A stretch of 64,000 nt of DNA, taken from Mycoplasmatota bacterium (GTDB lineage Bacteria > Bacillota_I > Bacilli_A > Acholeplasmatales > Acholeplasmataceae). Below, one piece after another: positions 1-61,468 of this stretch. Position 1 is the stretch's first letter. Each line of letters begins with the position of its first letter. The position numbers and the translations under genes are program-made. The notes under the pieces were generated by a model. That model made no database searches and was not told the DNA's origin. It worked only from the letters and a program-made list of their open reading frames with translations. The DNA lies in contig JANKMU010000006.1 in the NCBI GenBank assembly GCA_024650045.1, positions 1-64,000 of the forward strand, given 5' to 3'.

Positions 1-296
1 AATTCTTCTTCACCTATCCAACCATTCTTCTTAAGTACGTTGATAACGTGAACTGCTTTTTGTCGACTTGTTCGAGCTGGTTCATCATCTTCAGCATCAA
101 TGAAGTCTTCACTTGGCTGCTCATCGAAATAATCTATAAGCTTTTGAACAATATATTCTCTATCCCCTTGAAAAGCATCTTCTATTGTATCAATCGAGTG
201 ATAAATGATAAAAATACAGTCGATATATGTCTTTTTATTCGGGGAGGAAAGCACACTAAAAAAATTGCTGTTGATTCTATCGAACAAATGTGCCAT
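1..296 (-). CDS. jetA: Wadjet JetA-like protein (DUF5716), N-terminal part only
   Basis: This gene runs off the left edge; 98 codons are visible. The ATG at 296 follows a strong AGGAGG site (301-306). The protein begins MAHLFDRINSNFFSVLSS and later reads KAVHVINVLKKNGWIGEEE, which resembles the winged-helix start of the JetA family (DUF5716), the kleisin-like subunit of Wadjet. Wadjet systems (JetABCD) combine an SMC-like complex with a nuclease and cut plasmid DNA. The stretch DAEDDEPARTSRQKA lies between the helices. The jetB, jetC and jetD genes would be expected beyond position 1 and cannot be seen. Recognition is from remembered family features, so a related MukF-like kleisin remains possible. 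It follows the DEAD-box gene by 87 bases. Confidence 0.72.
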   Translation of the reverse strand, partial: MAHLFDRINSNFFSVLSSPNKKTYIDCIFIIYHSIDTIEDAFQGDREYIVQKLIDYFDEQPSEDFIDAEDDEPARTSRQKAVHVINVLKKNGWIGEEE

Positions 297-314
297 TTGA
301 TCCTCCTTTATTTT

Positions 315-383: not shown

Positions 384-2000
384 TTATTTGTTTCTAAGAA
401 TTATAATCTTTATTTTTTTGTTATTAAACATTTTGTTATTCAATTCATCAAGCCGTTTAATTGCTGCTGGATGAATTTGAAACTCTGTTTCTTTTGGATA
501 GATGACAATGTCACCTATGTTTTTAGGGTACAAGTCAACATGTTTTTTAAAATAATCAAGTAAAGTTACTGGTCTGATCCCATCTTCTTTACCTAAATTA
601 ATAAGTACATTTTTATAAGCACCAGTACGTTTTCTTTTCCCATCATTTGTTTTTTCTCGTCGATCTGAATCATCAGCTTTTCTCTTCACTGGGACTATTA
701 CTGAGTCATATGATTTCTTTTCATCCATAACTTTTGATAATAATGCAGAAATAATTTGTTGATCTTCAAAACCATCTTTATGAAGTTGAGAAATAATTTC
801 ATCGAAATTTTCTTCATTATGAGAAACCATTTCCATAATTTTCGTGTAATTTCTTTGTTCTCTTCTTATATTGATTTCTTCTTCTGTTGGTATTTCTTTT
901 TCTACCATCTTCGTTTTAATAAAACGTTCAATCATAGCAAGCTTTCCGCGCATACTTGGATAAACAAGTGAGATCGATACACCTGAAGCTCCTGCACGAC
1001 CAGTACGACCGATTCTATGGACATATATTTCATCTTCAAATGGTAATTCGTAATTAATGACCATATCAACATGGGATATGTCTAGTCCTCTTGCTGCAAC
1101 ATCTGTAGCAATTAAGAATTTTAATCTTTTTGATCTAAAACGCCCCATAACATAATCTCTTTGGCTTTGCTTTAAATCTCCATGTAGTGCATCTGCTTCA
1201 TAATTGTGTTTTTGTAAGTAAGCAGATAACGCATCAACATCTTTTTTTGTATTCGCAAAAATAATGGCTGATGCAGGATCATAAAGATCTAAAATACGAA
1301 CTAAGAGTTGATCACGGTCTGACTTTTTCACATTGTAGTAAAGTTGATCTGTTTTTGATACAGTTAGTGTTGGTGTTTCAATCTTAATGATTTCAGGATT
1401 CTTTTGGTAACGTTGCGCAACTTTTCTAATAAATGGTGGGATTGTTGCAGAAAATAATGCTGTTTGTCTTTCTTTAGGTGTATCTTTTAAAATGGTTTCT
1501 AAGTCTTCTTGGAAACCCATTTTAAGCATTTCATCTGCTTCATCCATAACAAGTACTTTAAGTGAACTAAAATCGATTGTTTTACGTTGTAAATGGTCGA
1601 TAGTTCTACCTGGTGTAGCAACAACAATATGTGGGTGTTCTGATAAAGCTTTAAATTGCTTGTTATAAGATTCTCCACCGTAAATAGATGTAATTCTTAC
1701 ACCCTTGCTAAACTTGATGAGTTTAATAAACTCTTTATAAACCTGAAGCGTTAGCTCTCTCGTAGGACAAATCACTAATGCTTGAACTGTTTTTTCATTG
1801 ACATTGATTTGTTCTAAAATAGGTATAGCAAATGCAAATGTTTTGCCCGTACCTGTTTGCGCTTGACCGATAAGATCTCTTCCTTCTAACATCTTTGGAA
1901 TTGCATGATGTTGGATGGCTGTAGTCTCTACTAATCCTAAGGATTCAATTGCTTGTTTTGTTTCTTGTAAAATTTCTAACTCATTAAATAAAATATTCAT
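384..2000 (-). CDS. DEAD-box ATP-dependent RNA helicase with DbpA-like RNA-binding tail
   Basis: RNA helicase of about 538 residues. Visible motifs in order: Q motif (AIQHHAIP, residues 28-35), Walker A AQTGTGKT (47-54), PTREL, TPGR, DEAD, SAT and HRIGRTGR. After the two RecA-like domains comes a basic linker (KRKADDSDRREK) and a C-terminal domain of about 80 residues resembling the DbpA/YxiN RNA-binding domain. That would fit a role in 23S rRNA or ribosome assembly, but it could equally be a CshA-type general helicase. The start chosen is ATG 2000; an in-frame TTG at 2012 overlaps the GAGG ribosome binding site and is unlikely. The gene is alone in its transcription unit as far as can be seen. 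Confidence 0.92.
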   Translation of the reverse strand: MNILFNELEILQETKQAIESLGLVETTAIQHHAIPKMLEGRDLIGQAQTGTGKTFAFAIPILEQINVNEKTVQALVICPTRELTLQVYKEFIKLIKFSKGVRITSIYGGESYNKQFKALSEHPHIVVATPGRTIDHLQRKTIDFSSLKVLVMDEADEMLKMGFQEDLETILKDTPKERQTALFSATIPPFIRKVAQRYQKNPEIIKIETPTLTVSKTDQLYYNVKKSDRDQLLVRILDLYDPASAIIFANTKKDVDALSAYLQKHNYEADALHGDLKQSQRDYVMGRFRSKRLKFLIATDVAARGLDISHVDMVINYELPFEDEIYVHRIGRTGRAGASGVSISLVYPSMRGKLAMIERFIKTKMVEKEIPTEEEINIRREQRNYTKIMEMVSHNEENFDEIISQLHKDGFEDQQIISALLSKVMDEKKSYDSVIVPVKRKADDSDRREKTNDGKRKRTGAYKNVLINLGKEDGIRPVTLLDYFKKHVDLYPKNIGDIVIYPKETEFQIHPAAIKRLDELNNKMFNNKKIKIIILRNK

Positions 2001-2066
2001 TTTTTTCCTCAATTCTTTAAACCTTATACACTATACCATATAAATGATAAAAATACTATTAAATCA

Positions 2067-2091
2067 TTAAAAAAAGACTCACCGAGTCTTC
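2067..2091 (-). terminator. Intrinsic terminator of the DsbA-like gene
   Basis: AAGACTC-ACC-GAGTCTT at 2074-2090 forms a stem that, on the minus strand, is followed by seven Ts. The TGA stop codon of the DsbA-like gene (2079-2081) lies in the loop. Confidence 0.85.
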
Positions 2092-2726
2092 TTTCTATCA
2101 CAATTCTCACCTTCACAGTAATCCGTCTTGTTAAACTGCGCAGATGACTTCATTAAAGCTTCTAGAATTTGTAAATCGTCATGATAACCGCTTAGGCGTA
2201 TTTTTCCATCGATACGAATATGTGGAAGTTCAAAAATGCCTTTTAAAATTGCATTTTCACGGTTTAAATTCACTGTTTCAAGAAACATGTTTGATGCTAA
2301 AACTTCTTCAACTTGACTTTGATCTAAGCCAATAGATAAAGCTATATCCATTAAAACATCTTGATTGCTAATATCTAGTTTATGTTCATAATAGGATTTG
2401 AAAACTTTTTGATTAAACTCAAATGCTTTATCACTTTTCTTAGCAAGATGAGAAAGTCTATGAACATCAGTAACCTTAACAGGTTTAAGTGATTCGCCAA
2501 TATGAGGACAAATATCTTTAGCTTCTTCAACAGAAATGACGTGATGTTTTGCTAAAACATCATAAAATGTACACCCTTCATCTGGTTCAAATTGAGGTAT
2601 CATTTCGTAGCTTCGATATAGCAATTCAAGATCATTAAATTGATATTTTTTGAACAATAATTCGATACTTTGATGTTGCTGATAACAAAGTGGACTTAAG
2701 TAGTCTAACCAAAATTCAAGCTTCAT
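2079..2726 (-). CDS. DsbA-family (FrnE-like) thioredoxin-fold protein without a CXXC pair
   Basis: A 215-residue protein starting MKLEFWLDYLSPLCYQQ. The beta strand followed by xxSPLCY is the usual active-site position of DsbA/FrnE-family proteins, but the first cysteine of CPxC is replaced by serine, leaving a single cysteine. The cis-proline region is recognisable as GIFELPHIRIDGK near residue 165. It has no signal peptide, so it is probably cytosolic. FrnE-like relatives are often annotated as dithiol-disulfide isomerases; with one active-site cysteine a glutathione-transferase-like or chaperone-type role is also possible. The tail CEGENCDRKKTR carries two more cysteines. The gene ends in TGA. 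Confidence 0.8.
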   Translation of the reverse strand: MKLEFWLDYLSPLCYQQHQSIELLFKKYQFNDLELLYRSYEMIPQFEPDEGCTFYDVLAKHHVISVEEAKDICPHIGESLKPVKVTDVHRLSHLAKKSDKAFEFNQKVFKSYYEHKLDISNQDVLMDIALSIGLDQSQVEEVLASNMFLETVNLNRENAILKGIFELPHIRIDGKIRLSGYHDDLQILEALMKSSAQFNKTDYCEGENCDRKKTR

Positions 2727-2800
2727 TTATATTCCATCCCTTATGTCTAACTTATGCTGTTATTTTAGCAATTTTTAAGCCTTAAAATCAAATGTTACGC

Positions 2801-4285
2801 CTAGACAAATTGCTTTCTATAAACGATTTGTTCATCAACAACAGTCATTTCAACGATATCTTTTTTATAGTTTTCGATATCTGTTGTGAGCAAATCATAT
2901 GTAAAGACTGATAAATCAGCAATATAACCACTTTTTAAATAACCACGATTAAGATGTTGTGTCGAATAATTAGCATTGATAGTATATAAAGATATCGCAT
3001 CAAAACGGTTTAATTTTTCTGATTCAAAATACGTTTTTCCATCATGATCTGATTTTCTTTCGATTGCTGCGTAAATACCTAATAACGGATTAGGTATTTC
3101 AACTGGTGCATCACTACTACCTGCTTGATTGATTCCATTTTCTTTTAATGTCTTCCAAGGAAAACATAACTCTGGTGTTTCACTTAAATATTGAAGTGCC
3201 CAAGGTAGATCACTTGAAAGAAACTGTGGTTGGATATCAAGTGATATCGGTAATTTTTTCATTAAATCAATCGTTGATTTTGCAAGCCATGGTGTGTGAA
3301 TCAAACGATCATGCAAACCTTCATCTACTGGATATTTTTCTAATAATTGACATACATCTTCAGTCGCTTGATCTCCGATCACATGAACTGCAACCGGTAA
3401 ATGATGTTTTCTTGCTTTTTTAATCATTTTAACGAATTGTTGATCAGTTTGTACTTTGAGTCCAAACTCATCTGTATTTTTATATGGTTTTTTCATCCAT
3501 GCTGTCTTTGAAGATAAGGTGCCATCATAAAACATTTTAACTGCACCAAGTTGTAAATATTTATTTTGGTCTAAAAATGGTCTTTTAGACTTAATAAAAT
3601 CATTTAACGTTAAATGATGCATTAATAAATGCGCTCTAAAAGGTAGGGTTTCTAATGTTTTCTCAAAGACAAATACCGTTTCATCAAATCCATTAAAATA
3701 ATATAGATCATCACTATGCCCACCGGTAATACCATATTGATGAAGACTTTGAATAGATTCAATCAAAATTTCTTGTATTTTTTCTTTGGTGTATTTAGGA
3801 AAACTATCAATAGCCTTTTGTGCCTCATCTTCTGTTAGTACACCTGATAAGGATTTAATTTTTGCTTGTGTTAAAACAAAATCATTTACCGTTAAACTAT
3901 GATAATCATTGTGTCTGAGTAATATAGGATGTTCGTTTGAGATAGCATTTAAGTCATCTTTTGTTAAGCCACACTCAAAATAACCTTCAACAAACAAAGG
4001 TGCATCGCTATATATTTTCTTTATTTCTTTGATGATTTGATTTTTCTTTTTTAAATGAGAAAAATTAGGTCTCAATAGTTTTTGTCCATATCCTAATAAA
4101 TGTAGATGAGCATCAACAAATCCTGGATAGACATGTCCTTGATTCATATCAATGATTTCATCGAATGCCAATTCTTTGATCTCATCATCAAATCCGATAA
4201 TAATGCCATCTTGTGTGGCCATTTGCGTATAGACAGTTGTTTGGTCTTCCATTGTATGAAAAAACCCATTGGTCCATAGTTTCAT
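2801..4285 (-). CDS. YtcJ-like metal-dependent amidohydrolase
   Basis: Amidohydrolase-superfamily enzyme of about 494 residues. The metal-binding HxH lies in GFVDAHLHLLGYG near residue 60, the second conserved histidine region in VAVHVIGDQA near residue 300, and the late aspartate in GSSDAPVE near residue 390. The long insertion-rich TIM barrel fits the YtcJ/AepA group, whose members hydrolyse amides such as formamide derivatives; the substrate here is unknown. ATG 4285 is preferred over the in-frame GTG at 4294, because the GGGG ribosome binding site overlaps that GTG but sits 8 bases before the ATG. No obvious operon partner. Confidence 0.87.
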   Translation of the reverse strand: MKLWTNGFFHTMEDQTTVYTQMATQDGIIIGFDDEIKELAFDEIIDMNQGHVYPGFVDAHLHLLGYGQKLLRPNFSHLKKKNQIIKEIKKIYSDAPLFVEGYFECGLTKDDLNAISNEHPILLRHNDYHSLTVNDFVLTQAKIKSLSGVLTEDEAQKAIDSFPKYTKEKIQEILIESIQSLHQYGITGGHSDDLYYFNGFDETVFVFEKTLETLPFRAHLLMHHLTLNDFIKSKRPFLDQNKYLQLGAVKMFYDGTLSSKTAWMKKPYKNTDEFGLKVQTDQQFVKMIKKARKHHLPVAVHVIGDQATEDVCQLLEKYPVDEGLHDRLIHTPWLAKSTIDLMKKLPISLDIQPQFLSSDLPWALQYLSETPELCFPWKTLKENGINQAGSSDAPVEIPNPLLGIYAAIERKSDHDGKTYFESEKLNRFDAISLYTINANYSTQHLNRGYLKSGYIADLSVFTYDLLTTDIENYKKDIVEMTVVDEQIVYRKQFV

Positions 4286-4340
4286 TATTTTCACCCCTGA
4301 ATGATAACTTTATCTTGATTTTACCACATATTAATAAAGG

Positions 4341-5096
4341 CTATGATTTAACAACTTTTTTAATATCATCAATTGGATAACCTTTTGCATATAATTTTTG
4401 AATGATTTCATATTGGATATTGTGTTGATCTACTTTTGATTGATATTTTTTAAGAAGTTTTTGGTAGTCTTTTTCTATAAGACTTAATTCATTACCTATG
4501 TAATAATCTAAAGCATTTTTTAAGGCTTGATCAACAATATCCATATGAAATCCTTTTCTGATAAAAAAACCTTTGACTGTCTGTAGTGCTTGTTTTTTTG
4601 ATTTTTTACTTACCGATTTCATTTTCTTAGGAATGAGTTCTAAAAGAATTTGTAGCTCATCATTTTTTTCAAGTAAGGATTGAATAACTGCTGGATCAAT
4701 TCCTTTTTCTCTTAATTTATGTTCAATCACTAAAGGTCCATCACTATATTTTTTTTGTGCAATATAATCTTTAGCATAGAGGTTATCATCAACATATTTT
4801 CTTTCTACATACTTTTGAACCACTTGTTTGGCAATAGAATCTGACGCGCCTTTAGACAGCAAAAAATCTTTAATTTCTTTTCTTGTTAACATGCGCTTTA
4901 ATTTAATGATACCTAGTTTATAAAAATAGATGTATTCATTCTCTTTGATTAATTCATGAAAAGTTTTTATATCGATTTCTTTACCTGGACTTAAGCGATA
5001 TTTTAAAAAAACTTCTGGTTCTATGACCAAAAGTTCTCCATTAAAGAAGACTTCATAATTTTTTGATTTTTTTGTTATTTCTGTAATAGTTTTCAT
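4341..5096 (-). CDS. recX: Regulatory protein RecX
   Basis: RecX-family protein of 251 residues with the characteristic three-helix tandem repeats (LTRKEIKDFLLSKGAS, VQKYVERKYVDDNLYAKDY, LREKGIDPAVI). RecX binds RecA filaments and modulates recombination and SOS induction. No recA is in the window. Its ATG lies 3 bases after the S41 protease stop codon, so the two are probably co-transcribed and translationally coupled. The N-terminal 60 residues and long C-terminus are typical of the Bacillota form. Confidence 0.9.
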   Translation of the reverse strand: MKTITEITKKSKNYEVFFNGELLVIEPEVFLKYRLSPGKEIDIKTFHELIKENEYIYFYKLGIIKLKRMLTRKEIKDFLLSKGASDSIAKQVVQKYVERKYVDDNLYAKDYIAQKKYSDGPLVIEHKLREKGIDPAVIQSLLEKNDELQILLELIPKKMKSVSKKSKKQALQTVKGFFIRKGFHMDIVDQALKNALDYYIGNELSLIEKDYQKLLKKYQSKVDQHNIQYEIIQKLYAKGYPIDDIKKVVKS

Positions 5097-5099
5097 ATT

Positions 5100-6611
5100 T
5101 TATGGGTTTTTAATTATATCAATGAGACTTTGTAGTTGAACATCTTTTTGGATATCTTGTTTGTCACTCATATAAATTTGATGAATACGAATCGCTGTTT
5201 CTCTGCTTAATACTGCTTCATTATCTACATCATTTATAGTGTTAAATGCGATAATGGCATTTTCTGTTGCTAAATCAAAATATCCATCAGTTCTTAATAA
5301 GTCATCACCTGAAAAATCAAAGAAGTAATTCAAAAAGTGCTGATAATTGATTAATGATTGTGATAATTGATTAAATGATACTTCACCATCATAAATAGGC
5401 ATATCTACCATATGTATCCCACCTTGATCGATTGGTTCAACATCTAGCGGATCTGTACTTACATTTTTACCATCATCATAAAACCATTCACCTTCAGTAT
5501 AAGCTAGTGAATATCTGATTCCACCAATATCAGTTATATAGATATAGTTTTGATAAACACCTTTGCCATAAGTTTGATTGCCATAAAGCGTATATCCACC
5601 TCTTGTGTTTAGCACAGCAGCTAAAACTTCTGCAGCTGATGCAGAGTTTTCATTCACAAGGACTTTGATATCATATGGTTTCGATGTGTTTTGTCCACCA
5701 AAAAAGTAATTGATTTCACCACTTTTTGGAATCATCGTAAATAAAGGATTTTCCAAATCTCTTCTTAAGAGTTGTTGCGTAATACCTTGGAAATCTTCAG
5801 AATTACTATTTTTTTGATTATGTAATGCTGATAAAGAACCTCCTGGATTATCTCTTAAATCTAAAATAAGTGTTTTATTTTCAGGATTCTCATTTAATAT
5901 TGTTGACTCTAGTTCTACTAATCGATCATAAAATACGCGATCAGTTCCAGCTGTTATACCTTCTTGATATCCAGAAAACTGAGTAATTCTAAGATATGCA
6001 ATACCATCTTCTACTAAATCTTTTGTATATGCAGTTGGTGTGTCTATTTCTTTATAGATAATGGTTACATTCGATATAACACCATCTGGGTCTTCAACAA
6101 TTAAGATTTTTTCATCATCAATATTGCCTACTAGATATGTTGATGATTCAAAACTAGAACTTAAATCTTCAAAATAAATAGCTTCATCTTCTAAAACACC
6201 AATGATTAAATCATTAGGATAAAGTTTGTTTTCTGCAGCACTGTTTGGATAAACATATTGAACACGATATAGATTATCCTCTGTAGATACATTAACACCT
6301 ATTCCAACAAACTTCTCATCACTTCTAGGTTCAACATTAAGTGGTGAGGAGACTAATCTTGTATATGGATCATTATTTGCTAATGCATAGCTATTTATTG
6401 CTGATTCAATTGATGCGATTAATGCATTTTGCTCATCGACATCATTTAAATCATAATAGTAATACTCATCCATGATTCGAGTGACATAATTAAATAAGTC
6501 ATTTCGATTGGTTGGTGAAGGTTGTTCAACAACATTAGATGCATAATATCCTGCAAAGAAAGCTAATACAACACTAATAAGAAATAAAATACCTAATTTT
6601 CTACTTACCAT
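5100..6611 (-). CDS. S41 family C-terminal processing protease (CtpA-like)
   Basis: A 503-residue membrane-anchored protease. Residues 7-25 are a single hydrophobic anchor (signal anchor, no lipobox). A PDZ domain spans roughly 85-175. The catalytic serine is in NSASAAEVL near residue 323 and the catalytic lysine in YGKGVYQ near residue 348, so the serine/lysine dyad is intact. The C-terminus (about 450-485, FDLATENAIIAFN) looks like a peptidoglycan-binding PG_1 module as in Bacillus CtpA, which is odd if the host lacks a cell wall. The start overlaps the end of the YitT gene by 7 bases (AAATGGTAA). Likely acts on exported or membrane proteins. Confidence 0.9.
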   Translation of the reverse strand: MVSRKLGILFLISVVLAFFAGYYASNVVEQPSPTNRNDLFNYVTRIMDEYYYYDLNDVDEQNALIASIESAINSYALANNDPYTRLVSSPLNVEPRSDEKFVGIGVNVSTEDNLYRVQYVYPNSAAENKLYPNDLIIGVLEDEAIYFEDLSSSFESSTYLVGNIDDEKILIVEDPDGVISNVTIIYKEIDTPTAYTKDLVEDGIAYLRITQFSGYQEGITAGTDRVFYDRLVELESTILNENPENKTLILDLRDNPGGSLSALHNQKNSNSEDFQGITQQLLRRDLENPLFTMIPKSGEINYFFGGQNTSKPYDIKVLVNENSASAAEVLAAVLNTRGGYTLYGNQTYGKGVYQNYIYITDIGGIRYSLAYTEGEWFYDDGKNVSTDPLDVEPIDQGGIHMVDMPIYDGEVSFNQLSQSLINYQHFLNYFFDFSGDDLLRTDGYFDLATENAIIAFNTINDVDNEAVLSRETAIRIHQIYMSDKQDIQKDVQLQSLIDIIKNP

Positions 6612-7465
6612 TTGGCTTCCTCCCGACTAAATCCTTGTCCCAATGCTTCTTTTGTTTTGGTAACAAATGTAAATGCATTCGGATCAGTATTTTTAATAAT
6701 CATTTTAAAATGGTAGAGTTGTTGACGATCAACTGTACAAATAATCATCTCTTTTTCTAAATTTGAATAGCCTCCAACAACTCTTAATTTTGTAATACCA
6801 CGCTCTAATTTTTTATAAATTTGTTCTTTCATGAGTTCGCAATAATCAGTGACAATGAAAACTGTATAACCTGATCGTCCTTCAATGGCTAATCGATCAA
6901 CGATTAGTCCACTGATTAGCATCGCACCTAATGCATATAATCCTAATTGGAAATTAATGAGCATTGCTGTAAAGATAATCGCTCCATCGGTTAGATAGAT
7001 TGCTGTTGAAAAAGGAATATTTAAGTATTTACTCATTATTCTTTGAATGACATCAATACCACCAGTAGTTGCATTGTTTCTTAAAACGATACCTAAGCCA
7101 ATACCTACAAATAAACCACCAAAAGCTGATGCTACAAGTAATGGACTTTCTGTCATATGTTGCATAAAAAAGTTTTTATCAATCGTTAATTCTAAAACCC
7201 AAATAATCGTCGGAGATAAAAGTGTTGCATAAACAGTTTTATAAAAAAACACCTTACCCAAGACTATTGCTCCAATGATTAAAAGAATAATATTAACGAT
7301 ATACATAAATAAACTTACAGATATAAAATCTTGAACTAGTACTGCAACCCCCATCACACCACCAATAACTAAACTAAGTGGTAATAAGAAAAAATAGAAA
7401 CCTAAGGACAGAAGGATGATACCTACTGTGATTTCTAATATTTCTCTACGTTTTGCTTTATTCAT
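6605..7465 (-). CDS. YitT family membrane protein (DUF161/DUF2179)
   Basis: A 286-residue membrane protein with about five or six hydrophobic segments (residues 10-200), glycine-rich loops such as GGLFVGIGLGIVLRNNATTGGIDVI, and a C-terminal soluble DUF2179 domain (about 205-280, VDRQQLYHFKMIIKNTDPNAF). Transport has been proposed for the family but no substrate is established. Its ATG overlaps the prfB stop by 8 bases, and its own end overlaps the protease start, so secA-prfB-yitT-ctpA-recX read as one operon. Confidence 0.88.
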   Translation of the reverse strand: MNKAKRREILEITVGIILLSLGFYFFLLPLSLVIGGVMGVAVLVQDFISVSLFMYIVNIILLIIGAIVLGKVFFYKTVYATLLSPTIIWVLELTIDKNFFMQHMTESPLLVASAFGGLFVGIGLGIVLRNNATTGGIDVIQRIMSKYLNIPFSTAIYLTDGAIIFTAMLINFQLGLYALGAMLISGLIVDRLAIEGRSGYTVFIVTDYCELMKEQIYKKLERGITKLRVVGGYSNLEKEMIICTVDRQQLYHFKMIIKNTDPNAFTFVTKTKEALGQGFSREEAKW

Positions 7466-8558
7466 CTAGATCACCTGCTTTTAAATAAGCATTGATAAAT
7501 CCGTCAAGTTCCCCGTCCATCACAAGATCAACATTACCAACTTCATAGTTGGTTCTATGATCTTTTACCATTTGATAAGGATGGAAGACATAAGACCTTA
7601 TTTGGGAACCCCAAGCAATATCTTTTTGTTCACCTTTAATATCTTTTAAAATTGCTTCTTGTTTTTTGATTTCTTCTTGTGCTAATTTAGATTTTAATAC
7701 GCTCATAGCTGATTCTTTATTTTTTAATTGACTGCGTTCATTTTGACATGTGACAACAATATTTGTTGGTAAATGAGTGATTCTTACGGCTGAATCGGTT
7801 GTATTAACTGATTGTCCACCTGCACCACCACTTCTGTAAACGTCAATCTTTAAATCTTCATCTTTAATTTCTATATCGACTTCGTCAATAATTTCAGGCA
7901 TGATATCTACAGATGCAAAAGATGTATGTCTTCTGGCATTTGAATCAAATGGAGAAATACGGACAAGTCTGTGAACGCCTCGTTCAGCTTTTAAATATCC
8001 ATAAGCATAATCGCCTTTAATCATCATGGTCACACTTTTAATACCTGCTTCATCCCCTGCTTGATAATCAAGAAGTTCTATTTTAAAGTTTTTCTTTTGT
8101 GCATATCTATTATACATACGATATAACATATCACACCAGTCTTGGGATTCTGTTCCTCCAGCACCGGGGTGAAGTTCTACGATTGCATTATTAGAATCAT
8201 AAGGTTCATTTAATAACGTTTTAATTTCAAAGGCTTTGAGTTTGGTTTGTAGTGTTTCTAAGTCTGTTTCGAGTACATCCCATTCTTCTGTTCCTTCTTC
8301 ACTGATTTCAAACCAATCGACTAAATTTTGATATTGTTTTTCTAAGTCAGAAAATTCGTCAAGTTTTTGACGAATTTCTGTAGCTTGTTTAGTTATTTTT
8401 TTAGCTTGATTTGTATCTGACCAAAAATTAGGTTGTTGCATCAAATCATTCAACTCGCGATATTGACTTTCTAATTTTTGTGGATTCAAAGCTTTATTTA
8501 AATCTTGAATACTTTCTTTCATACTAGATATGGTTTTATTAACTTCATATGTTTCCAC
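7458..8558 (-). CDS. prfB: Peptide chain release factor 2, no programmed frameshift
   Basis: Release factor 2 of 366 residues with the UGA-recognising SPF tripeptide (ISPFDSNARRH, near residue 203) and the catalytic GGQ (GAGGQSVN, near residue 247). The start is GTG 8558 behind AAGGAGGTG. In most bacteria prfB contains an in-frame UGA with a +1 frameshift near codon 25; here that region (KALNPQKLESQYREL) is read in one frame without interruption. A working RF2 means UGA is a stop codon in this organism, which separates it from Mycoplasma and Spiroplasma. It lies 12 bases downstream of secA. Confidence 0.96.
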   Translation of the reverse strand: METYEVNKTISSMKESIQDLNKALNPQKLESQYRELNDLMQQPNFWSDTNQAKKITKQATEIRQKLDEFSDLEKQYQNLVDWFEISEEGTEEWDVLETDLETLQTKLKAFEIKTLLNEPYDSNNAIVELHPGAGGTESQDWCDMLYRMYNRYAQKKNFKIELLDYQAGDEAGIKSVTMMIKGDYAYGYLKAERGVHRLVRISPFDSNARRHTSFASVDIMPEIIDEVDIEIKDEDLKIDVYRSGGAGGQSVNTTDSAVRITHLPTNIVVTCQNERSQLKNKESAMSVLKSKLAQEEIKKQEAILKDIKGEQKDIAWGSQIRSYVFHPYQMVKDHRTNYEVGNVDLVMDGELDGFINAYLKAGDLDE

Positions 8559-8570
8559 AAAAACACCTCC

Positions 8571-11039
8571 TTATCGCCAAGGCAAATTGCGTTGTCCTCT
8601 ATTTTTTCTTACTTTCGGTCTTTTCGGTCTTTGATCAGTTGTTCCTTGATTGGTTGAAGTGTTTTTAACAACTGCTTCTCTTTCTACGTTATATTGGATT
8701 TGCGCACGTATTGCATATCTTGTGACATCATTAGAAATATTTCTAATCATGTCATTAAACATTCTCAATCCTTCTTTTTGGTAAATCACAAGAGGGCTTT
8801 GTTGAGCGTATGCTTGAAGTGATACACCTTGTCTTAGCTCACTCATCGCATCAATATGACGCATCCAATAGGTATCAATAACACGCAGCATAACAACCTT
8901 TAAAAATTCATTAAAGATCTCAGGTGGTACAGCTTCTTTTTTACGATCAAGTTCCTGATTTGCTATGTTTAAAATATATTCTAATAACTCTTTTTCATCC
9001 ATTTTCTCAATGGTTTCTTTAACTAATGTTTCTGGTTGAAAAATATTACCGTTGAAAGTTGCGATAATGTTATCATCATCAATTTCAAATTGGTTTTTAC
9101 CAACTTGATGAACAAATTGTTGAACAGTACTGGTAATGCTGTTTGTCATTGTCGTTCTAACTTGATCTTCAATTGATTCTAAAACTAAAACATCACGACG
9201 TTCTTTATAAATAATTTCTCGTTGTTTGCGGAGTACATCATCATATTTTAAAACGTTTTTACGTGAATCATAGTTATTACCTTCGATTCGCTTTTGTGCA
9301 CTTGTTACAAATCTAGAAAACAATTTTGATGATAATGCTTCACCAGAAGTATTAAGTCTTTCAAGCATTTCTATACGGCGTTTAAAGCTTTCGCCACCAA
9401 ATCTAAGCATCAGTTCATCTTCAGCTGACAAATAGAATCTAGAGTAACCTGGGTCACCTTGACGTCCACTACGACCTCTTAACTGATTATCAATACGTCT
9501 AGATTCATGACGTTCACTACCAATAACAGCTAAACCACCTAGTCCAACGACACCTTGACCAAGTTTAATATCGGTACCACGACCAGCCATATTGGTTGCG
9601 ATGGTAACAGATCCTTGTAAACCTGCTTTAGCAACTATTTCAGCTTCTCTTTCATGATTTTTCGCATTTAACACTTCATGCGGTATGCGTCTTGCTTTGA
9701 GCATTCTTGAAATGTCTTCTGATGTTTCAACGGCTACTGTACCAACTAAAACTGGTTGTCCATTTTGATATCTTCTTTCGACTTCATCAACTAAAGCATT
9801 AAATTTATCTTTTAAATTTGCATAAATATAATCTGGTGCATCATCTCTAATGACTGGTGCATTGGTTGGAATTTCGATAACATCCATATTATAAATATCG
9901 CGGAATTCTTCTTCCTCAGTTTTTGCAGTACCTGTCATCCCTGATAATTTCTTATACATTCTAAAAAAGTTTTGATATGTAATCGTTGCTACGGTTACAG
10001 TTTCTTTTTTAACTTTAACGCCTTCTTTAGCTTCTAGAGCTTGATGAAGCCCTTCAGAAAACTGGCGTCCTCTTAAAACACGACCTGTAAATTGATCAAC
10101 GATTAAAACTTCATCATTATCGACCATATATTCTTTATCTCTAGACATAATATGTACAGCACGAAGTGCGTTGTTAATATGATGTACTAAAGTAACATGT
10201 TTTAAATCATATAAGTTTTCGAGTTGGAAAATCTGTTCTGCTTTTCTAATCCCTGATGGTGTTAAAGCAATACTTCTTGACTCTAGGTCAATTTCAAAAT
10301 CTTCATCACGGAGTGATTTCGAAAATCTATCTGCTGCTTGATAAAGATTATGATTATTTTTAGATCCACCAGAAATAATAAGTGGTGTTCTAGCTTCATC
10401 AATTAAAATTGAGTCAACCTCATCAATAATTGCGAAATTTAGTCCACGTTGAGCAACCATATCTTTTGCATATAAAACCATATGGTCACGCAAATAATCA
10501 AATCCTAGTTCACTATTTGTTGAATAAAGCACATCACAATCATATGCTTCTTTTTTCTGTTCACGAGTGATGTCTCTTAAATTAAGACCGACTGTTAAAC
10601 CTAAAAAACGGAAAAGATCACCGATCTCTCCTTCCGCCTCACGTTTAGCCAAATATTCGTTCACGGTAACGATATGAACCCCTTCACCATTAATTGCACT
10701 TAAATAGGCAGGCATCACTGCTGTCAGTGTTTTACCTTCACCAGTCTTCATTTCTGCAATGTTCCCGTGGAAGATTGCAACTGCACCTAAGACTTGTACA
10801 TAATATGGAAAAAGTTTTGTTACTCGACGGGAAGATTCTCTAACAACAGCATATGCTTCTGCCATAATTGAATCTAATGTCTCACCGTTTTCATAACGTT
10901 CTTTAAACTCGTTAAATTTATTTTTTAATTCTTCGTCTGTTTTTTGGGTCATTTCTTCTTCTAGAGAAAAAACGACATCAGCTATTTTTTTGGCTTCTTT
11001 CAGTTCTTTTTTACTTGGGTCAAACCACTTTTTTAGCAT
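8571..11039 (-). CDS. secA: Preprotein translocase ATPase SecA
   Basis: Motor of the Sec export pathway, 822 residues. Walker A is MKTGEGKTL (near residue 100), Walker B is IIDEVDSILIDEART (near 205), and the second nucleotide-binding fold contains IATNMAGRGTDIKLG. Helical wing and scaffold domains are complete (RVIDTYWMRHIDAMSELRQG). The C-terminus ends in a basic tail (RPKVRKNRGQRNLPWR) without the cysteine-rich zinc site that binds SecB in many bacteria, as is common in Tenericutes. It heads the secA-prfB-yitT-ctpA-recX cluster. Confidence 0.97.
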   Translation of the reverse strand: MLKKWFDPSKKELKEAKKIADVVFSLEEEMTQKTDEELKNKFNEFKERYENGETLDSIMAEAYAVVRESSRRVTKLFPYYVQVLGAVAIFHGNIAEMKTGEGKTLTAVMPAYLSAINGEGVHIVTVNEYLAKREAEGEIGDLFRFLGLTVGLNLRDITREQKKEAYDCDVLYSTNSELGFDYLRDHMVLYAKDMVAQRGLNFAIIDEVDSILIDEARTPLIISGGSKNNHNLYQAADRFSKSLRDEDFEIDLESRSIALTPSGIRKAEQIFQLENLYDLKHVTLVHHINNALRAVHIMSRDKEYMVDNDEVLIVDQFTGRVLRGRQFSEGLHQALEAKEGVKVKKETVTVATITYQNFFRMYKKLSGMTGTAKTEEEEFRDIYNMDVIEIPTNAPVIRDDAPDYIYANLKDKFNALVDEVERRYQNGQPVLVGTVAVETSEDISRMLKARRIPHEVLNAKNHEREAEIVAKAGLQGSVTIATNMAGRGTDIKLGQGVVGLGGLAVIGSERHESRRIDNQLRGRSGRQGDPGYSRFYLSAEDELMLRFGGESFKRRIEMLERLNTSGEALSSKLFSRFVTSAQKRIEGNNYDSRKNVLKYDDVLRKQREIIYKERRDVLVLESIEDQVRTTMTNSITSTVQQFVHQVGKNQFEIDDDNIIATFNGNIFQPETLVKETIEKMDEKELLEYILNIANQELDRKKEAVPPEIFNEFLKVVMLRVIDTYWMRHIDAMSELRQGVSLQAYAQQSPLVIYQKEGLRMFNDMIRNISNDVTRYAIRAQIQYNVEREAVVKNTSTNQGTTDQRPKRPKVRKNRGQRNLPWR

Positions 11040-12736: not shown

Positions 12737-13885
12737 TTATAACAGTTCTCTAAAGAAAGCAATCTTATCGATTTTTTCCCATGTAAAAGTATCTTCATTT
12801 CGCCCAAAATGACCATATGCCGCTGTTTGTGCAAAGATAGGTTTTTTAAGGTCAAGTGCTTCGATAATTGCTTTTGGTCTTAAGTCAAAATGTTTATGAA
12901 TAACTTCATAAATTTTTTCTACTGGTACACGTTCAGTTCCAAATGTATCAACTAATACACTAACAGGTTTAGCAACACCGATTGCGTATGCTATTTGAAT
13001 TTCACATTGATCAGCTACACCTGATGCAACAACATTTTTGGCAATATATCTCGCCATATATGCAGCACTGCGATCAACTTTTGATGCATCTTTACCTGAA
13101 AATGCTCCACCACCATGACGAGCATACCCACCATATGTATCAACAATAATTTTTCTACCTGTAAGTCCGGCATCTCCATCTGGTCCACCGATAACAAATC
13201 TACCGGTTGGATTAATTTGATAAATTGTATTTGATGTATCATAATATTTTAAGATAGGTTCTAATACATGTTTGTGAATTTCTTTTTTAAGGTCTTCTAA
13301 TTTCCATGATGGTTCATGTTGTGTTGATAAAACGACTGTATGAATACTTTCTGGTTGATTTTTTTCATTATATTCAACAGTCACTTGAGTCTTCCCATCT
13401 GGTCTAAGACCTTGGATAATGTTGTTTTTTCTAACATATGTCAACCGTTCAGCTAAACGATGTGCTAAATGAATAGGTAGTGGCATTAAAGTATTTGTTT
13501 CATTGGTAGCATAACCAAATGTTAAACCTTGATCACCAGCACCTTGTTCTTTAACATCACTTTCATCAACACCTAAAGCAATATCTTCTGATTGACGCTT
13601 TAAGCGAATATCAATTTCTACTTCATGTGTATTAAAACCATATTCAGGCTTATCATAGCCTATATAACGGATTGCATCTTTAATGATCTTTTTATAATCA
13701 ATTTTTGCGTTGGTGGTAATTTCACCAAGCAATAATGCATAATGTGTTGTTACTGCAGTCTCACATGCAACTCTTGAATTTGGATCTTGTGCCAATGCGG
13801 CATCTAAAACAGAATCTGAAATAAAGTCTGCAACTTTATCTGGATGTCCTTCTGTTACGGACTCACTACTAAATAATCTTCTCAT
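12737..13885 (-). CDS. metK: S-adenosylmethionine synthetase
   Basis: MetK makes S-adenosylmethionine from methionine and ATP. The 382-residue protein has all three signature regions: [12 protein letters not shown] near the N-terminus, [15 protein letters not shown] near residue 115, and [19 protein letters not shown] near residue 258. The length is normal. The start codon follows AAAGGAAG with 8-base spacing. Upstream is a SAM-I riboswitch and intrinsic terminator, so expression should fall when SAM is abundant. Confidence 0.97.
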
Positions 13886-13947: not shown

Positions 13948-14046
13948 TTCCTTATTGATGGGTTTTTACCCCTCGTGATAAGCACCTAATTGAATAGGTT
14001 GCTGCTACTTCGTCGGTCACTTGCCTCCATAGCTCTGAATAAGTGA
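13948..14046 (-). ncRNA. SAM-I riboswitch (S box) aptamer upstream of metK
   Basis: On the minus strand the aptamer core is recognisable in order: CTTATTCAGAG, then GGAGGCAAGTGACC, GACGAAG, AGCAACC, GGTGCT, and a closing AATAAG. The P1 stem pairs 14038-14043 (CTTATT) with 13951-13956 (AATAAG). These are the conserved SAM-I elements. The downstream terminator and metK make the regulatory logic clear: SAM binding favours termination. Confidence 0.93.
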
Positions 14047-15457: not shown

Positions 15458-16027
15458 TTATAAGTCAAATATACTAAAACGTTTTACCCCAATATCTTCA
15501 TGTGCTATTTCTTCATTTGTCACCTGTGCAACTCTTGTTGATGCTGCTGCAGCGATAGCTCCAACAATATCGTCTAAGAAAGTATGACAAATGCCTTCTT
15601 CTTTACCTGCATCATTTAAACGTTGAACAATACCATGTTTATTGACATCGATATCGCCAAAATTCGTTTGACCGATGGTGCCATATAGACCAGCTACATC
15701 TAATCCCATTGTTTCATCAATTCCAAATAATCCCAAATCTTCTAAAATAATATCTTGAATTGGTCCTTGAAACATCTTTTGTTCTGCTAAACGATCTATT
15801 TCAGCAGCAAGCTGAACATGATGGAATACATCACGTAGTGATAATATTTTTTCTACAGATTCTTGACAAAGTTCTCTTGTAATGTTTTCTGTGTATTTCG
15901 CTTGTTGTTGAAAACTGATTTCAGCGATTGATTCTATTGAAACACCACGTTTTAATAAAACCTTTTTATTTAATTCAAACATTTCTTGTCTTGTAAACAA
16001 CAATTTTTTAGCTTTTTTTTCTGCCAT
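15458..16027 (-). CDS. YutG/PgpA-like phosphatidylglycerophosphatase A family protein
   Basis: About 189 residues. The C-terminal segment HTFLDDIVGAIAAAASTRVA and the mid region GLYGTIGQTNFGDIDVNKHGI match the YutG branch of the PgpA family. PgpA removes phosphate from phosphatidylglycerophosphate; the soluble YutG branch is not proven to do so. The N-terminus is lysine-rich (MAEKKAKKLLFTRQEM). ATG 16027 is favoured, because the GAAGGG site is about 10 bases upstream of it but nearly touches the alternative ATG at 16036. It overlaps or abuts the fmt stop codon. Confidence 0.82.
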   Translation of the reverse strand: MAEKKAKKLLFTRQEMFELNKKVLLKRGVSIESIAEISFQQQAKYTENITRELCQESVEKILSLRDVFHHVQLAAEIDRLAEQKMFQGPIQDIILEDLGLFGIDETMGLDVAGLYGTIGQTNFGDIDVNKHGIVQRLNDAGKEEGICHTFLDDIVGAIAAAASTRVAQVTNEEIAHEDIGVKRFSIFDL

Positions 16028-16028
16028 C

Positions 16029-16958
16029 CTATTCATTCCCTTCTATAAACACATCACCTTGATCCATGATGGTTTGACCATTAAGAAAATCTTTTGCAAG
16101 CATTTGTTTTTTTCCTGGAGATTGGACGATAAGCATTTCAACTGAACCATCTAATGTCTTTATAACAAGTTTTTTCTTTGTGCTAAGTACCGTTCCAGGC
16201 GTTGCCTTACTGTCTATTATATCACTTTTTTGTGCTTGATAGAATTTGATGATTTGCCCATGAATATAAGCATGTGCTCCAGGTTCTGGAGACAGTCCTC
16301 GAATTCTATTGATCACTTGTTTAGTGGTTTGATGAAATGATAGATATTCATCTTCTCTTTTTAATGTATATGCAAATGTTACTTCATCTACGTTTTGGGG
16401 GATGCGATCTATTTTACCAATAGCTATATCAGATAATACTTTATCTAGTAAACGTGTTCCAACTTGACTCAGTTTAATACTGAGTGATTGATAGTTATCA
16501 TCGCTTGAGATTGGAACAACTTCTTGATCAATGATATCACCACTATCCATTTTGTATGCCATATACATAATGGTGACGCCAGTTTCCTCTAATCCATCAA
16601 ATAATGCATATTGTATTGGTGCTCCACCTCTATATTTAGGTAATAATGAGCCATGAACATTAATGGCTTCTATTTGATCTAATAAATCTTTAGGAAGCAT
16701 TTGACCATATGCAGCAGTAATTATATAATTGGGCTTTAAATCGATGATTGTTTGATAATTATTTGTTAATTTTTCAGGTTGAAAAACTGGCAATCCAAGT
16801 TCGATTGCTTTATTTTTAACTGGGGATTGTGTCATTGTTTTTTTTCTACCGACTGGTTTATCTGGTTGTGTAACAACAAGTAAAACATCATGCTTGAAGT
16901 TAAGCATTTCTAAAATTGGCACTGCAAATTCTGGAGTTCCCATAAATACTATTTTCAT
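16029..16958 (-). CDS. fmt: Methionyl-tRNA formyltransferase
   Basis: Formylates initiator Met-tRNA. The 309-residue protein has MGTPEFAVPIL at the N-terminus, the catalytic region HGSLLPKYRGGAPIQ (near residue 107), the conserved D in YMAYKMDSGDI, and the C-terminal tRNA-binding domain (RIRGLSPEPGAHA onward). It sits 8 bases after priA, the arrangement common in Bacillota. Confidence 0.96.
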   Translation of the reverse strand: MKIVFMGTPEFAVPILEMLNFKHDVLLVVTQPDKPVGRKKTMTQSPVKNKAIELGLPVFQPEKLTNNYQTIIDLKPNYIITAAYGQMLPKDLLDQIEAINVHGSLLPKYRGGAPIQYALFDGLEETGVTIMYMAYKMDSGDIIDQEVVPISSDDNYQSLSIKLSQVGTRLLDKVLSDIAIGKIDRIPQNVDEVTFAYTLKREDEYLSFHQTTKQVINRIRGLSPEPGAHAYIHGQIIKFYQAQKSDIIDSKATPGTVLSTKKKLVIKTLDGSVEMLIVQSPGKKQMLAKDFLNGQTIMDQGDVFIEGNE

Positions 16959-16966
16959 ATCATCAC

Positions 16967-19291
16967 CTACACAATATCCAAATATGGAAAATATCTAATC
17001 TTGATATCATCAAATTCATATGCTTCTAAAATACCGAAAAGCTCTTGTTTCTCTATTGTTTCATATTTTAGCGTAATTGTAAATCGATAATAGTCTTTAA
17101 TTTTAGTAATTAAAGCTTGTGATGGTCCTAAGACATCACAAGATAAACCTAACAATGCTTTTTTAAGCATAAAAGCTCGTTGATAAGTCTTTAAATAACT
17201 CTTTCCTGAAATTAAGATTTGTGATGTGTTTTTAAATGGAGGATAATTCATTAATTTACGGTTATATAAAGCTTCTTGATAAAAAGTCTCATAGGTTTGA
17301 TTTACACTCCTAATCGCGAAATGATCGACATCATATCCTTGAATAATCGCTTCACCTGGGTAAAATCTGCCTGACCTACCGGTAACTTGTGCTAAAAGCA
17401 TATAAGCATTTTCCGTAGATTTATAAGATGGAACTTTTAATAATAAATCAGCCATTAATACACCAACTAAAGTGACTTTAGGAAAATCCAAACCTTTAGC
17501 AATCATTTGGGTACCTAACAAAATATCAGCTTCTTCATTTAAAAAATCATTCCAAATAATTTCATGACTACCTTTAGTTTGTGTTGTATTTTTATCCATA
17601 CGAAGTACTCTTGCATGTGGGATATGTTTTTTTAGAAAGTGTTCAACATATTCGATACCCGTTCCCACTTCTTTAACTTTTGGTTCTTGGCATACTGAAC
17701 ATGTACTATCAAATGGTTTTTCATAGCCACAATAATGACACTTTAAAGTTTGTTTATCTTTATAATATGTCAAAGATATATCACAATGCGGACACTTTGG
17801 AACATCACCACATGAGCGACATAACACAAAAGGAGCATACCCTTTCCTATTAAATAACAAAATGGTTTGTTCCTTTCTTTCAAGTCTTTGATGCATCGCA
17901 TCTAATAATGTTTTCGAAAAAATAGATGTATTATTGTTTTTTAATTCTTTTCTCATATCAACAAACTCAATTGAAGGAATGGATAAATCAAATGGTCTTT
18001 TCGTTAATTCTAAAAGTGTATATTTTTGATTGTTAGCTTGATACATCGACGTAATACTTGGTGTAGCACTACCTAATACAACCGGAATATGATGGTGTTT
18101 AGCACGCTCAAATGCGATTTCTTTAGCATCATAGATGACTTGCTCTTTTTGGATGTATGAATCATCATGTTCTTCATCAATAACGATTAACCCTAAATCA
18201 TCCATTGGTAAAAAGACAGCACTTCTCGTTCCTAAAACAATTGAAGCTTTTCTAGATTGAATTTTTTTGTATTGATCAAAGCGTTCACCAGTTGATAATG
18301 CACTATGATAAATAGCAACATCACTAAATCTTGATTTAAGTCTTTTTGCCATTGGTGCTATTAAAGTGATTTCTGGTACTAAAACTAATACTTGTTTTTG
18401 TTGTTCTATAACTTTAGAGATAACTTCTAAATAAACTTCTGTCTTCCCTGATCCTGTAATCCCTTTTAATAAGAAAACTTCTTGCTTATCCAAACGATTA
18501 ACGATTTGATGGGTTGCATTTTGTTGTTCATCTGTTAAAACAATTTTCTTATCCTCAAGGTTAAAATGATGTTGTATCTCTCTAATGACTTCTTTTTCTT
18601 TTTCTATTAAAACGTCATGCTTAACAAGTGTGTTTAAGTTACTTGAAGTTAACCCTTGATCAAGAAGTTCTTTTCTTGTATACTCTTTTTTCATATTGAA
18701 TAAATCAACAACCATCTCATAATGATAAATCCGTTTATATTGATGGTTTTCGTTGTATTGATATGTTTTATCTATTTTAGGTGTTCCTTTTTCTTTAATG
18801 ATTGTTTTGATTCTAATAATCTCATTTTTCTTGGAGTCTCGTAAGTATTTTAATCTAGGGTATAGAACCTGATCTTTTCTTTTTAACTTCCAAATACCTT
18901 TTTTATTAAAATAGGGTTTCAAATCATCAGGAATTAAATCAGCATTAACCATTTCAATAACTTTTGTATAATTAACCGATAGCTCAGGTGGTATAACCGT
19001 TGAAAAAATTGAACTATAAAGTGCTGGAACATGGTTTTTAATATAATTCATCAGATTAAATAGTTCTTCATTAATCGATGGTATGACATCTAATACTTCA
19101 ATTATTTCTTTGGTAGCATCCTTACTTTCACTAGTTATTTCAGTCACGTAACCCATTCTTGTTTGGCTACCAAATGGAACAACTACACGCATACCACGCT
19201 CTAAAAAATCCTCAAATTTTTGAGGAACGATATAATCAAAAAAGCGATTTACATCTTCATGTTTAATATCAATTATAACCTTTGCATACAT
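16967..19291 (-). CDS. priA: Primosomal helicase PriA
   Basis: Replication-restart helicase of about 774 residues. It has Walker A GITGSGKTEVY (near residue 270), a DEEHDDSYIQ motif II, an eight-cysteine zinc-binding region (CRSCGDVPKCPHC through CHYCGY to CSVC, about residues 475-515), and helicase motifs GTQMIAKGLDFPKVTLV and QVTGRSGR. ATG 19291 is chosen: it follows GGGTGAAAAC, whereas the upstream in-frame extension to 19327 lies in the promoter region. Own promoter likely (TATAAT at 19308-19313), just after the rbfA terminator. Confidence 0.96.
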   Translation of the reverse strand: MYAKVIIDIKHEDVNRFFDYIVPQKFEDFLERGMRVVVPFGSQTRMGYVTEITSESKDATKEIIEVLDVIPSINEELFNLMNYIKNHVPALYSSIFSTVIPPELSVNYTKVIEMVNADLIPDDLKPYFNKKGIWKLKRKDQVLYPRLKYLRDSKKNEIIRIKTIIKEKGTPKIDKTYQYNENHQYKRIYHYEMVVDLFNMKKEYTRKELLDQGLTSSNLNTLVKHDVLIEKEKEVIREIQHHFNLEDKKIVLTDEQQNATHQIVNRLDKQEVFLLKGITGSGKTEVYLEVISKVIEQQKQVLVLVPEITLIAPMAKRLKSRFSDVAIYHSALSTGERFDQYKKIQSRKASIVLGTRSAVFLPMDDLGLIVIDEEHDDSYIQKEQVIYDAKEIAFERAKHHHIPVVLGSATPSITSMYQANNQKYTLLELTKRPFDLSIPSIEFVDMRKELKNNNTSIFSKTLLDAMHQRLERKEQTILLFNRKGYAPFVLCRSCGDVPKCPHCDISLTYYKDKQTLKCHYCGYEKPFDSTCSVCQEPKVKEVGTGIEYVEHFLKKHIPHARVLRMDKNTTQTKGSHEIIWNDFLNEEADILLGTQMIAKGLDFPKVTLVGVLMADLLLKVPSYKSTENAYMLLAQVTGRSGRFYPGEAIIQGYDVDHFAIRSVNQTYETFYQEALYNRKLMNYPPFKNTSQILISGKSYLKTYQRAFMLKKALLGLSCDVLGPSQALITKIKDYYRFTITLKYETIEKQELFGILEAYEFDDIKIRYFPYLDIV

Positions 19292-57385: not shown

Positions 57386-57673
57386 CGATACGACCTTTAT
57401 GAGTTTCCCTTCATTATCATAAATGTAGTGTGTGTCTTGCCCTTTAGCATTTTGAATTGCTTCTAAAAAACCATTTAAAGTGTTTTGGTGGTATGTTGTT
57501 GTATTTCCAAATTCATTGGTTATTGTTGAAACAAATTGACTTAAATGAGTATAAGTCGTTGAGGTTACAAAATAAGATGTCCAGTCTCCTACATATAAAT
57601 CTTGAATCTGCCCATAACTATTATAGAGAACAGCTGATGTAACATTGTTATAGGTTACCTCATTGATTCTATC

Positions 57674-60600: not shown

Positions 60601-61468
60601 TCACCTTTGTGTTTTCAACTTTTAATTGAACTAAATCTGTTTCGTTTTCATTAGCGTCAAAAGCATAAAGATTACTAAAATTGAAGATTTCATCTCCATT
60701 ATCATTAATAAAAATCACCTGGTCATTTTCTTGAACAAGTGTCAGATTTTTCAGTGAGTATTCAAATGATATTGAGAAATTGTTTATATATTTTTCAAGA
60801 ATGATATTTTCTTTTACGTTAGTGCCATTAACTATATATTCTAGGTCAACTCCAGTCATAATATTTCGATATGTTACTTTTTGTGAAATGTCCGTTAGTT
60901 CTTTTAAGTTATTGGATTTAGCATCATTTTTCTCGATATCAATAGATGATTTGTTAATAGAAATAACTCGCCAATCTACTGAGTATTTATCTAACTCTAA
61001 TTTGATTCTCTTATTTTCATCAAGCTTTTTTGGTAACTTTATTTTGAAAGCATTTGCTTTATTTGTATATAAATCTGATTTGCTTTCATAACCAAGCGAG
61101 TTATCTATACTTTCAAATGTACCATTTTCATCGTAATGAACAGCATCATTGTAAATAGATACAACATAACTACCATCAACTCTTTGAAATGTCTTGGTAT
61201 TATTGGTTCTTAATGAATTCACTTCTCCTAATAATTTGATTTCTGAATAGTCGAAATTAGGATCTATTGTTGCTGGATAATCTTTCAATGTATCTTGAAC
61301 ATCTATTGGTTCAACAATGTCAGTTGATATTGCATGCAATGCATTCCATGGTACCAAACTTGAGATTTGTCCCAATAAAGCAAGAAAAACAAGAATCTTC
61401 TTGCTAGCATCAAGTAGTCTAACAAAAATTAAAATCTGTTTGTCACTCACAGTTCTTTTTTTGAACAT
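57674..61468 (-). CDS. Rhs/YD-repeat protein, proximal part with DNRLRE and carbohydrate-binding-like domains
   Basis: 1,264 codons. N-terminal export signal (KKILVFLALLGQISSLVPWNALHA). Residues about 310-470 form a DNRLRE-like domain (STQAISIFDTYVSQANPTSNY; LTKSIGAIDRTIGLYK). YD repeats lie around 690-840. Two jelly-roll, carbohydrate-binding-like domains follow (NVWIDVEGHDQGG, and GWTYSDIDYVYR to NVFFEYKG). It stops at TAA 57674-57676 in the middle of YD repeats. Very large, single-gene unit, 3,795 bases, next to nothing similar in the window. Confidence 0.85.
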   Translation of the reverse strand: MFKKRTVSDKQILIFVRLLDASKKILVFLALLGQISSLVPWNALHAISTDIVEPIDVQDTLKDYPATIDPNFDYSEIKLLGEVNSLRTNNTKTFQRVDGSYVVSIYNDAVHYDENGTFESIDNSLGYESKSDLYTNKANAFKIKLPKKLDENKRIKLELDKYSVDWRVISINKSSIDIEKNDAKSNNLKELTDISQKVTYRNIMTGVDLEYIVNGTNVKENIILEKYINNFSISFEYSLKNLTLVQENDQVIFINDNGDEIFNFSNLYAFDANENETDLVQLKVENTKVNTYQITVTIDDEWLKEASFPVTIDPTINSSTQAISIFDTYVSQANPTSNYSTSTIMVLSNSSSEYRGLMYFYLPSHIMNKQITYSTLKLTKSIGAIDRTIGLYKNNSNFSSNTATWNNKPTISTTMTDYHVVGTSNTYLFNITKAVREWHATGVTRTTGFTIKDKSDVGAYNSVRSMDHSNSTYHPVIEIGYIDSAGIKDYWTYNSQHIGEYSTGYVSDFTGLLNIVRSDLNYSTQRQTLSLGFSYNIQDRSSNYGYFKGWNIVYNSYVEFDSYIGLYKSTDSTGNVVYYHSTTCDSRITAPDPYVYTCYMADDGSGNVLYKSTVYGSLSGYYIYTKNNIKQKYNSSGYLASITNEESNQVIYITRDTSDLKKVTKITDSSGNKIEITYLNGNISKSKLYIYQNSSTNPYLLEEVNYSYVAKLDGSGQYELNVEYSKNYDDTLLMTVDEVLKYDYDAYGRILATYDGDDERIEYDYNTSNKIAGIRAFYGASIFSEISYDYSLRKTIITDQNNDFVQYKFDDFGHTVNILDKYGNIQYYKYSNIFSNPESTQNSYIFIDGEPNYIHNHRLVSQSSPQSSLFNPINNHGFEYSGINQDVNWKYYNDTGEIQEPDRDLQSTREVLFGTYSAMINANAIDTGHFEQTIILDANAYTLTGYVKNETNSSNVWIDVEGHDQGGTVTYISPSEKWTKITMTFVVSNDNTEVTISLINHANGRAFFDNIQIYEGFVDNRTNMIDNPSFEYADSYGNVPGWTYSDIDYVYRTEIGHTIDDLYKSILGNHAIQIEGSSTASRSAVTSISEFLDTSMLDEKGKLVIGAWARSSGVPATLTQSDLDNGNDRHFRIRVDFVSEAVFVWGPEYDATIIKSEYIDFDTTIEGWNYQYGEVTLPDVDTYWVNVFFEYKGEESVYFDGLQVFFENAYTNYEYNSIYGNLTAVETSRGDRTEYSYDATKDYASKPTEVQFFDGTTLEISTDS

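Follow-up and report, generated by a model that had tools for sequence, protein, structure and literature searches.

Wadjet type I, JetABCD, is the system also known as EptABCD and MksBEFG. According to PMC10123090, MksF (JetA) is the hub that holds the nuclease to the complex. The closest known system to the locus described here is MksBEF of Pseudomonas aeruginosa, which likewise has three Muk-like subunits and no MksG/JetD nuclease; P. aeruginosa, however, also possesses SMC (PMC7485682), whereas here ScpA is absent order-wide. Our JetABC fits MksBEF by description, being Muk-like and without a nuclease. In enterobacteria a Muk-like complex replaces Smc-ScpAB, as stated in PMC10586767, and the present locus resembles MukBEF in apparently standing in Smc-ScpAB’s stead and in a JetA model that resembles MukF; it differs in that JetC, at about 1100 residues, matches JetC1 models and is not of MukB length. 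With type I Wadjet it shares the JetA, JetB and JetC families, the order jetA-jetB-jetC and the ATPase motifs, but neither the locus nor the remainder of the genome contains JetD, and the genes belong to the core set of an order that lacks ScpA. The likeness to Smc-ScpAB is confined to the proposed job, since ScpA was found in none of the 160 genomes of the order and the SMC hinge is absent save for JetC’s own.

The window, the whole stretch of 64,000 nucleotides analysed here, comprises positions 1-64000 of contig C38 (84,182 bp) in a genome of 1.89 Mb and 41 contigs. Its position 1 is position 1 of C38, and the truncation of jetA at the left edge is therefore an assembly break. The features of the locus and its flank are as follows:

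3 to 296, minus strand: jetA, N-terminal 98 residues (MukF-like kleisin, N-terminal winged-helix region); PADLOC JetA1 and identity to a complete JetA
302 to 309, minus strand: ribosome binding site AAAGGAGG, spaced five bases from the jetA ATG; direct sequence reading
384 to 2012, minus strand: DEAD-box RNA helicase with a DbpA-type C-terminal domain; Pfam DEAD 6.8e-54, DbpA 2.1e-9
2079 to 8558, minus strand: housekeeping flank (DsbA-like, amidohydrolase, RecX, CtpA, YitT, PrfB, the last four presumed from translations); open reading frames and gene-order comparison of relatives
8571 to 11039, minus strand: presumed SecA, distal end of the conserved flank; 822-aa open reading frame
Contig C6 of the same genome (G000; locus L027), 15901 to 16998, minus strand: remainder of jetA; 82% identical to residues 96-460 of a complete 460-aa JetA

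On the minus strand, the frame at 3-296 opens with an ATG at 296-294 and continues for 98 residues with no stop before the left edge. It was matched by the PADLOC JetA1 profile (PDLC00442) with an E-value of 1.7e-24 (84.5 bits, profile positions 4-97 of 467) and is 85% identical to residues 1-98 of the complete 460-aa JetA; the match is therefore not due to chance. The Pfam JetA score (25.9 bits, E 4.7e-6) lies just below the cut-off of 26.2 because only a fragment is present, and the ncbifam profiles gave no match to the 98 residues. The initial annotation had read this truncated protein as the start of JetA, preceded by a ribosome binding site, in an Acholeplasma-like host. The JetA assignment stands, AAAGGAGG lies five bases upstream of the ATG, and the guess at the host agrees with the closest named JetC, that of Peloplasma aerotolerans (96%).

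The remaining part of jetA (PF18982, E 1.7e-71) is cut by the end of contig C6 (40,999 bp). AATTCTTCTTCAC is common to the ends of both contigs, and the protein parts meet without a gap, sharing EEE; judging from these shared ends, the junction of C38 with C6 very probably lies inside jetA. The search for jetB and jetC past the left edge, which had been recommended on first reading, was successful: both follow the remainder of jetA at the end of C6, and together with the C38 fragment all three genes are intact. JetB was recognized by PF13835 (DUF4194; E 4.4e-25) and PADLOC JetB1 (E 1.1e-65), and the 1102-aa JetC by PADLOC JetC1 (1097 bits). The gene following jetC encodes a C1-family peptidase (Pfam Peptidase_C1_2, 1e-158), and beyond it lies a gene that we take, from its translation, to be isochorismatase-like.

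On the window side, the DEAD helicase gene is conserved in the genus as the neighbour upstream of jetA, an order kept in L031, L032, L033 and L046. Pfam was applied to the DsbA-like and amidohydrolase proteins of the flank, and an open reading frame of 820-825 residues, corresponding in position to the presumed SecA, adjoins PrfB in L029, L034 and L043. Across the family, synteny extends over PrfB, YitT, CtpA, RecX, amidohydrolase, DsbA, DEAD helicase, JetA, JetB, JetC and PepC, with local gains and losses.

The JetC profile matches the solved Wadjet JetC (8as8) with an E-value of 6.8e-35, and its match to a solved MukB head-domain chain (4e-12) is weaker. JetA had no sequence match in the PDB. 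Its model (pLDDT 75, pTM 0.45) aligned best with MukF (9gm7_D; Z 14.6, rmsd 4.7, 262 residues aligned) and nearly as well with the Wadjet-II JetA 9qe0_E (Z 13.5); long helical folds can score highly by chance, and it is MukF and JetA chains that lead the list. The model thus predicts a MukF-like kleisin fold for JetA, one that is common to Wadjet JetA and hence not discriminating.

The reading of the left edge as a Wadjet plasmid-defence system survives in part: jetA, jetB and jetC are present, but jetD is missing and plasmid defence is unsupported. No jetD was found beside jetC in the last 17 kb of C6 (L027), and JetD_C (PF09983) matched nothing in the genome at E-values up to 1, the same model matching in B. 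subtilis and C. glutamicum. Without jetD, the locus is by definition not Wadjet. Genome-wide, JetD_C exceeded its cut-off in only two of 41 relatives (G034 and the second copy of G030). Of 70 genomes of the order whose jetC regions were read, 62 have a JetD-less locus flanked by 1500 bp or more and seven a JetD-bearing locus, with five too short to tell; within this set, four of the seven carry a JetD-less copy as well, and strain MO-XQ is a fifth genome with both, its JetD-less copy (L068) having come from another search. Overall, 155 JetC loci were collected, of which 129 extend for 1500 bp or more downstream; JetD lies nearby in 28 of these and not in the other 101, in a count that is not redundancy-filtered and includes some genomes under two records.

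JetC itself is widespread, occurring in 132 of the 160 genomes of the order and in 74 of the 88 of high quality; its relatives include Acholeplasmataceae MAGs, Haploplasma modicum, Acholeplasma oculi, strain MO-XQ and eleven phytoplasma genomes. ScpA was absent from all 160, our own included, with nine of 14 control genomes positive. It was also found in none of the 41 relatives, and the SMC hinge was detected in two of these, in both cases at coordinates inside the genome’s own JetC. Among 49 named JetC-bearing genomes, drawn from 76 loci, ScpA was present in none of the 24 Acholeplasmatales (11 phytoplasmas included), a group delimited partly by the JetC clade, versus 24 of the 25 others, which carry JetABC or JetABCD. 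The one of these 25 without ScpA, G085 (locus L124), also has JetD-less JetABC. This JetABC (L124 and L140; Bacilli, horse faeces) has the altered signature VSGGEGQ and a long branch, and perhaps represents another independent nuclease-less case.

A JetABC that is core and syntenic in an order devoid of ScpA is more readily explained by a chromosomal role than as an accessory defence island, and its distribution is most simply read as meaning that the complex performs the chromosomal tasks of the Smc-ScpAB that these bacteria lack. We therefore think it likely that JetABC, derived from type I Wadjet and lacking JetD, acts as the chromosomal condensin of these bacteria. It would form a three-subunit SMC complex, with JetA as the kleisin, JetB as the KITE subunit and JetC as the SMC ATPase. 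Dimers of JetC, closed by JetA and JetB, would load onto chromosomal DNA, and loops would be extruded at the expense of ATP, as by Wadjet JetABC. With no nuclease attached, a finished or stalled loop would have no cutting outcome, and we propose that the motor thus compacts the chromosome and helps to separate the sisters, the usual job of Smc-ScpAB, which is vacant here. We infer both the extrusion of loops on the chromosome and the housekeeping role.

In family f3, sepF, a cell-division gene, directly follows jetC, in the slot of jetD, in all 21 JetD-less loci read; twenty of these calls were made with a profile built from four of the 21 loci and one with Pfam, and Pfam applied to three of the loci found SepF in each. 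No sepF occurs at the JetD-bearing copies, and four genomes of the family (G030, G160, G173 and G175) each carry one jetABC-sepF and one jetABC-jetD. Presumed co-transcription with sepF would couple JetABC to the FtsZ division ring in this family. The gene after jetC encodes Cpn10 in f4 and a beta-lactamase-fold protein in f2, and the linkage to sepF is thus confined to f3.

Phytoplasmas with genomes of 0.5-0.6 Mb have kept JetABC. Here jetA does not lie with jetBC, but of the 11 genomes with JetBC ten keep a complete or almost complete jetA elsewhere; the suggestion that JetA had been lost in phytoplasmas, made because it is not beside jetBC, was accordingly rejected. The jetBC loci are L083, L086, L088, L093, L096, L097 and L099, and the jetA loci L135-L139 and L141-L145. 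A HAD-family hydrolase occupies the expected place of jetA beside jetBC, and in L087 jetB is also apart from jetC.

These observations bear on the possibility that the complex is still a defence system, in which JetABC would sense small circular DNA and either recruit an unrelated nuclease from another locus or silence and sequester plasmids uncut. The three Wadjet core subunits are indeed present with their ATPase motifs intact, true JetABCD copies in the same order show that the defence niche is real there, and the part of JetD could be played by an unrelated nuclease. However, JetABC is core, syntenic and vertically kept, not patchy; it persists in the reduced phytoplasma genomes even with jetA unlinked; some genomes hold a JetD-bearing copy besides the JetD-less one; and in f3 the slot of JetD holds sepF, not a nuclease. 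Continued defence is thus an unlikely explanation.

A second alternative is that JetABC is an accessory SMC complex, engaged in repair, local segregation or plasmid copy control, and that these bacteria have no global condensin. Both JetC and ScpA are absent from 28 of the 160 genomes of the order, single-contig genomes among them, which suggests that a condensin is dispensable here. These comprise 11 of the 29 genomes of phytoplasma genus g21, the whole of g24 (five genomes), G106 and the greater part of f5, among them the single-contig G038; G028, G112, G115 and G129 also belong to the 28, of which eight are not individually named. The 28 are possibly naturally condensin-free bacteria. Neither JetC nor ScpA is thus indispensable in the order, which also counts against the condensin reading, and essentiality cannot be claimed. 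The accessory reading also draws on the Haloplasmataceae. In these and in Inordinaticella (L095, L098 and L108) JetD-less JetABC occurs together with ScpA, the Haloplasma MAG carrying JetABCD as well. This arrangement may be an intermediate state, and the Haloplasmataceae indicate that loss of JetD alone does not amount to replacement of Smc. Against an accessory role, no SMC-kleisin complex other than JetABC was found in most of the order, and JetABC is linked to sepF in f3 and under strong purifying selection; we regard this reading as rather improbable.

Purifying selection acts on JetABC: dN/dS between our genome and P. aerotolerans is 0.028 for JetC, 0.021 for JetB and 0.025 for the JetA part, and lies between 0.09 and 0.19 in phytoplasma pairs. 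In an aligned check of 53 JetD-less JetC rows, Walker A, the signature and Walker B are kept in nearly all, the deviations being the VSGGEGQ signature of L124, GKTT in L080 and truncation in L067, L115 and L119; nearly all of the motif failures seen under a first, stricter pattern disappeared in this check. Conservation of JetA is alike in 28 JetD-bearing and 75 JetD-less rows, so nothing follows as to decay of a JetD-docking surface. The idea that draft assemblies or weak models make JetD falsely appear absent, or that JetABC is a decaying relic, could draw on the splitting of our own jetA between contigs and on the many loci from drafts, but it is very improbable and already largely refuted, as JetD profiles match clearly where JetD exists (27 matches in the scanned JetC loci), JetD-less loci also occur in the single-contig genomes G021, G094, G098 and G109, and dN/dS values of 0.02-0.19 with intact motifs exclude decay.

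The history of the putative chromosomal JetABC was examined in midpoint-rooted JetC trees. In a 79-row tree, from which 16 JetC matches were omitted (ten too short and six same-genome duplicates), the JetD state needs five changes, versus 22 in shuffles. A 30-row tree separates the JetD-less JetC of f1, with the phytoplasmas, from that of f2-f4 by a branch with 100/100 support. AU tests on this hand-chosen 30-row subset rejected a single clade of the order’s JetD-less JetC (p 2e-9) and a single clade of all JetD-less rows (p 3e-14), and did not reject f1 and Haloplasmataceae as one clade (p 0.22). The JetD-less complexes of the order therefore do not go back to one simple ancestral replacement; on at least two occasions either the nuclease was lost or a complex without it was acquired. 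Loss is the simpler direction because jetD occupies the same place in JetD-bearing loci of several families; as the trees are midpoint-rooted, loss instead of gain of JetD is an inferred direction.

A fuller scenario, whose chances of being right and wrong we consider evenly balanced, would be that loss of JetD converted an anti-plasmid SMC nuclease into a housekeeping condensin on two or more occasions in a single order, following or accompanying the loss of Smc-ScpAB. In f3, sepF would have moved into the freed slot and linked the condensin to the division ring; the complex would be the missing chromosome-partitioning factor of many phytoplasmas; and sister lineages without even JetABC would have no known condensin.

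No report of JetABC, MksBEF or Wadjet as a condensin in Acholeplasmatales was found in the open-licence PMC literature, covered mostly at the level of listings, and no paper in that literature was found to treat phytoplasmas and Wadjet together. Section 3.2 of PMC3322544 describes the partitioning repertoire of phytoplasmas as sparse and expects conserved hypothetical proteins to take part. A text search of PMC4221730 and PMC10868615 returned no mention of smc or ScpA, and where smc is mentioned in PMC8632452 and PMC12843639 the proteins meant are mobile-unit or surface-like ones. JetABC is a candidate for chromosome partitioning in phytoplasmas. More generally, an order in which a nuclease-less type I JetABC is the sole SMC-kleisin complex found makes the conversion testable, and it spans genomes with JetD-less and JetD-bearing copies as well as genomes with neither. 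For annotation, JetD-less JetABC loci ought to be kept out of counts of Wadjet defence systems.

Elsewhere in the window, the minus strand at 54728-61468 encodes an 885-aa RHS-repeat protein beside a 1264-aa open reading frame without a Pfam match at an E-value of 1e-5. A SAM riboswitch (Rfam RF00162, 50.2 bits) at 13949-14045 on the minus strand precedes a 382-aa open reading frame at 12737-13885.
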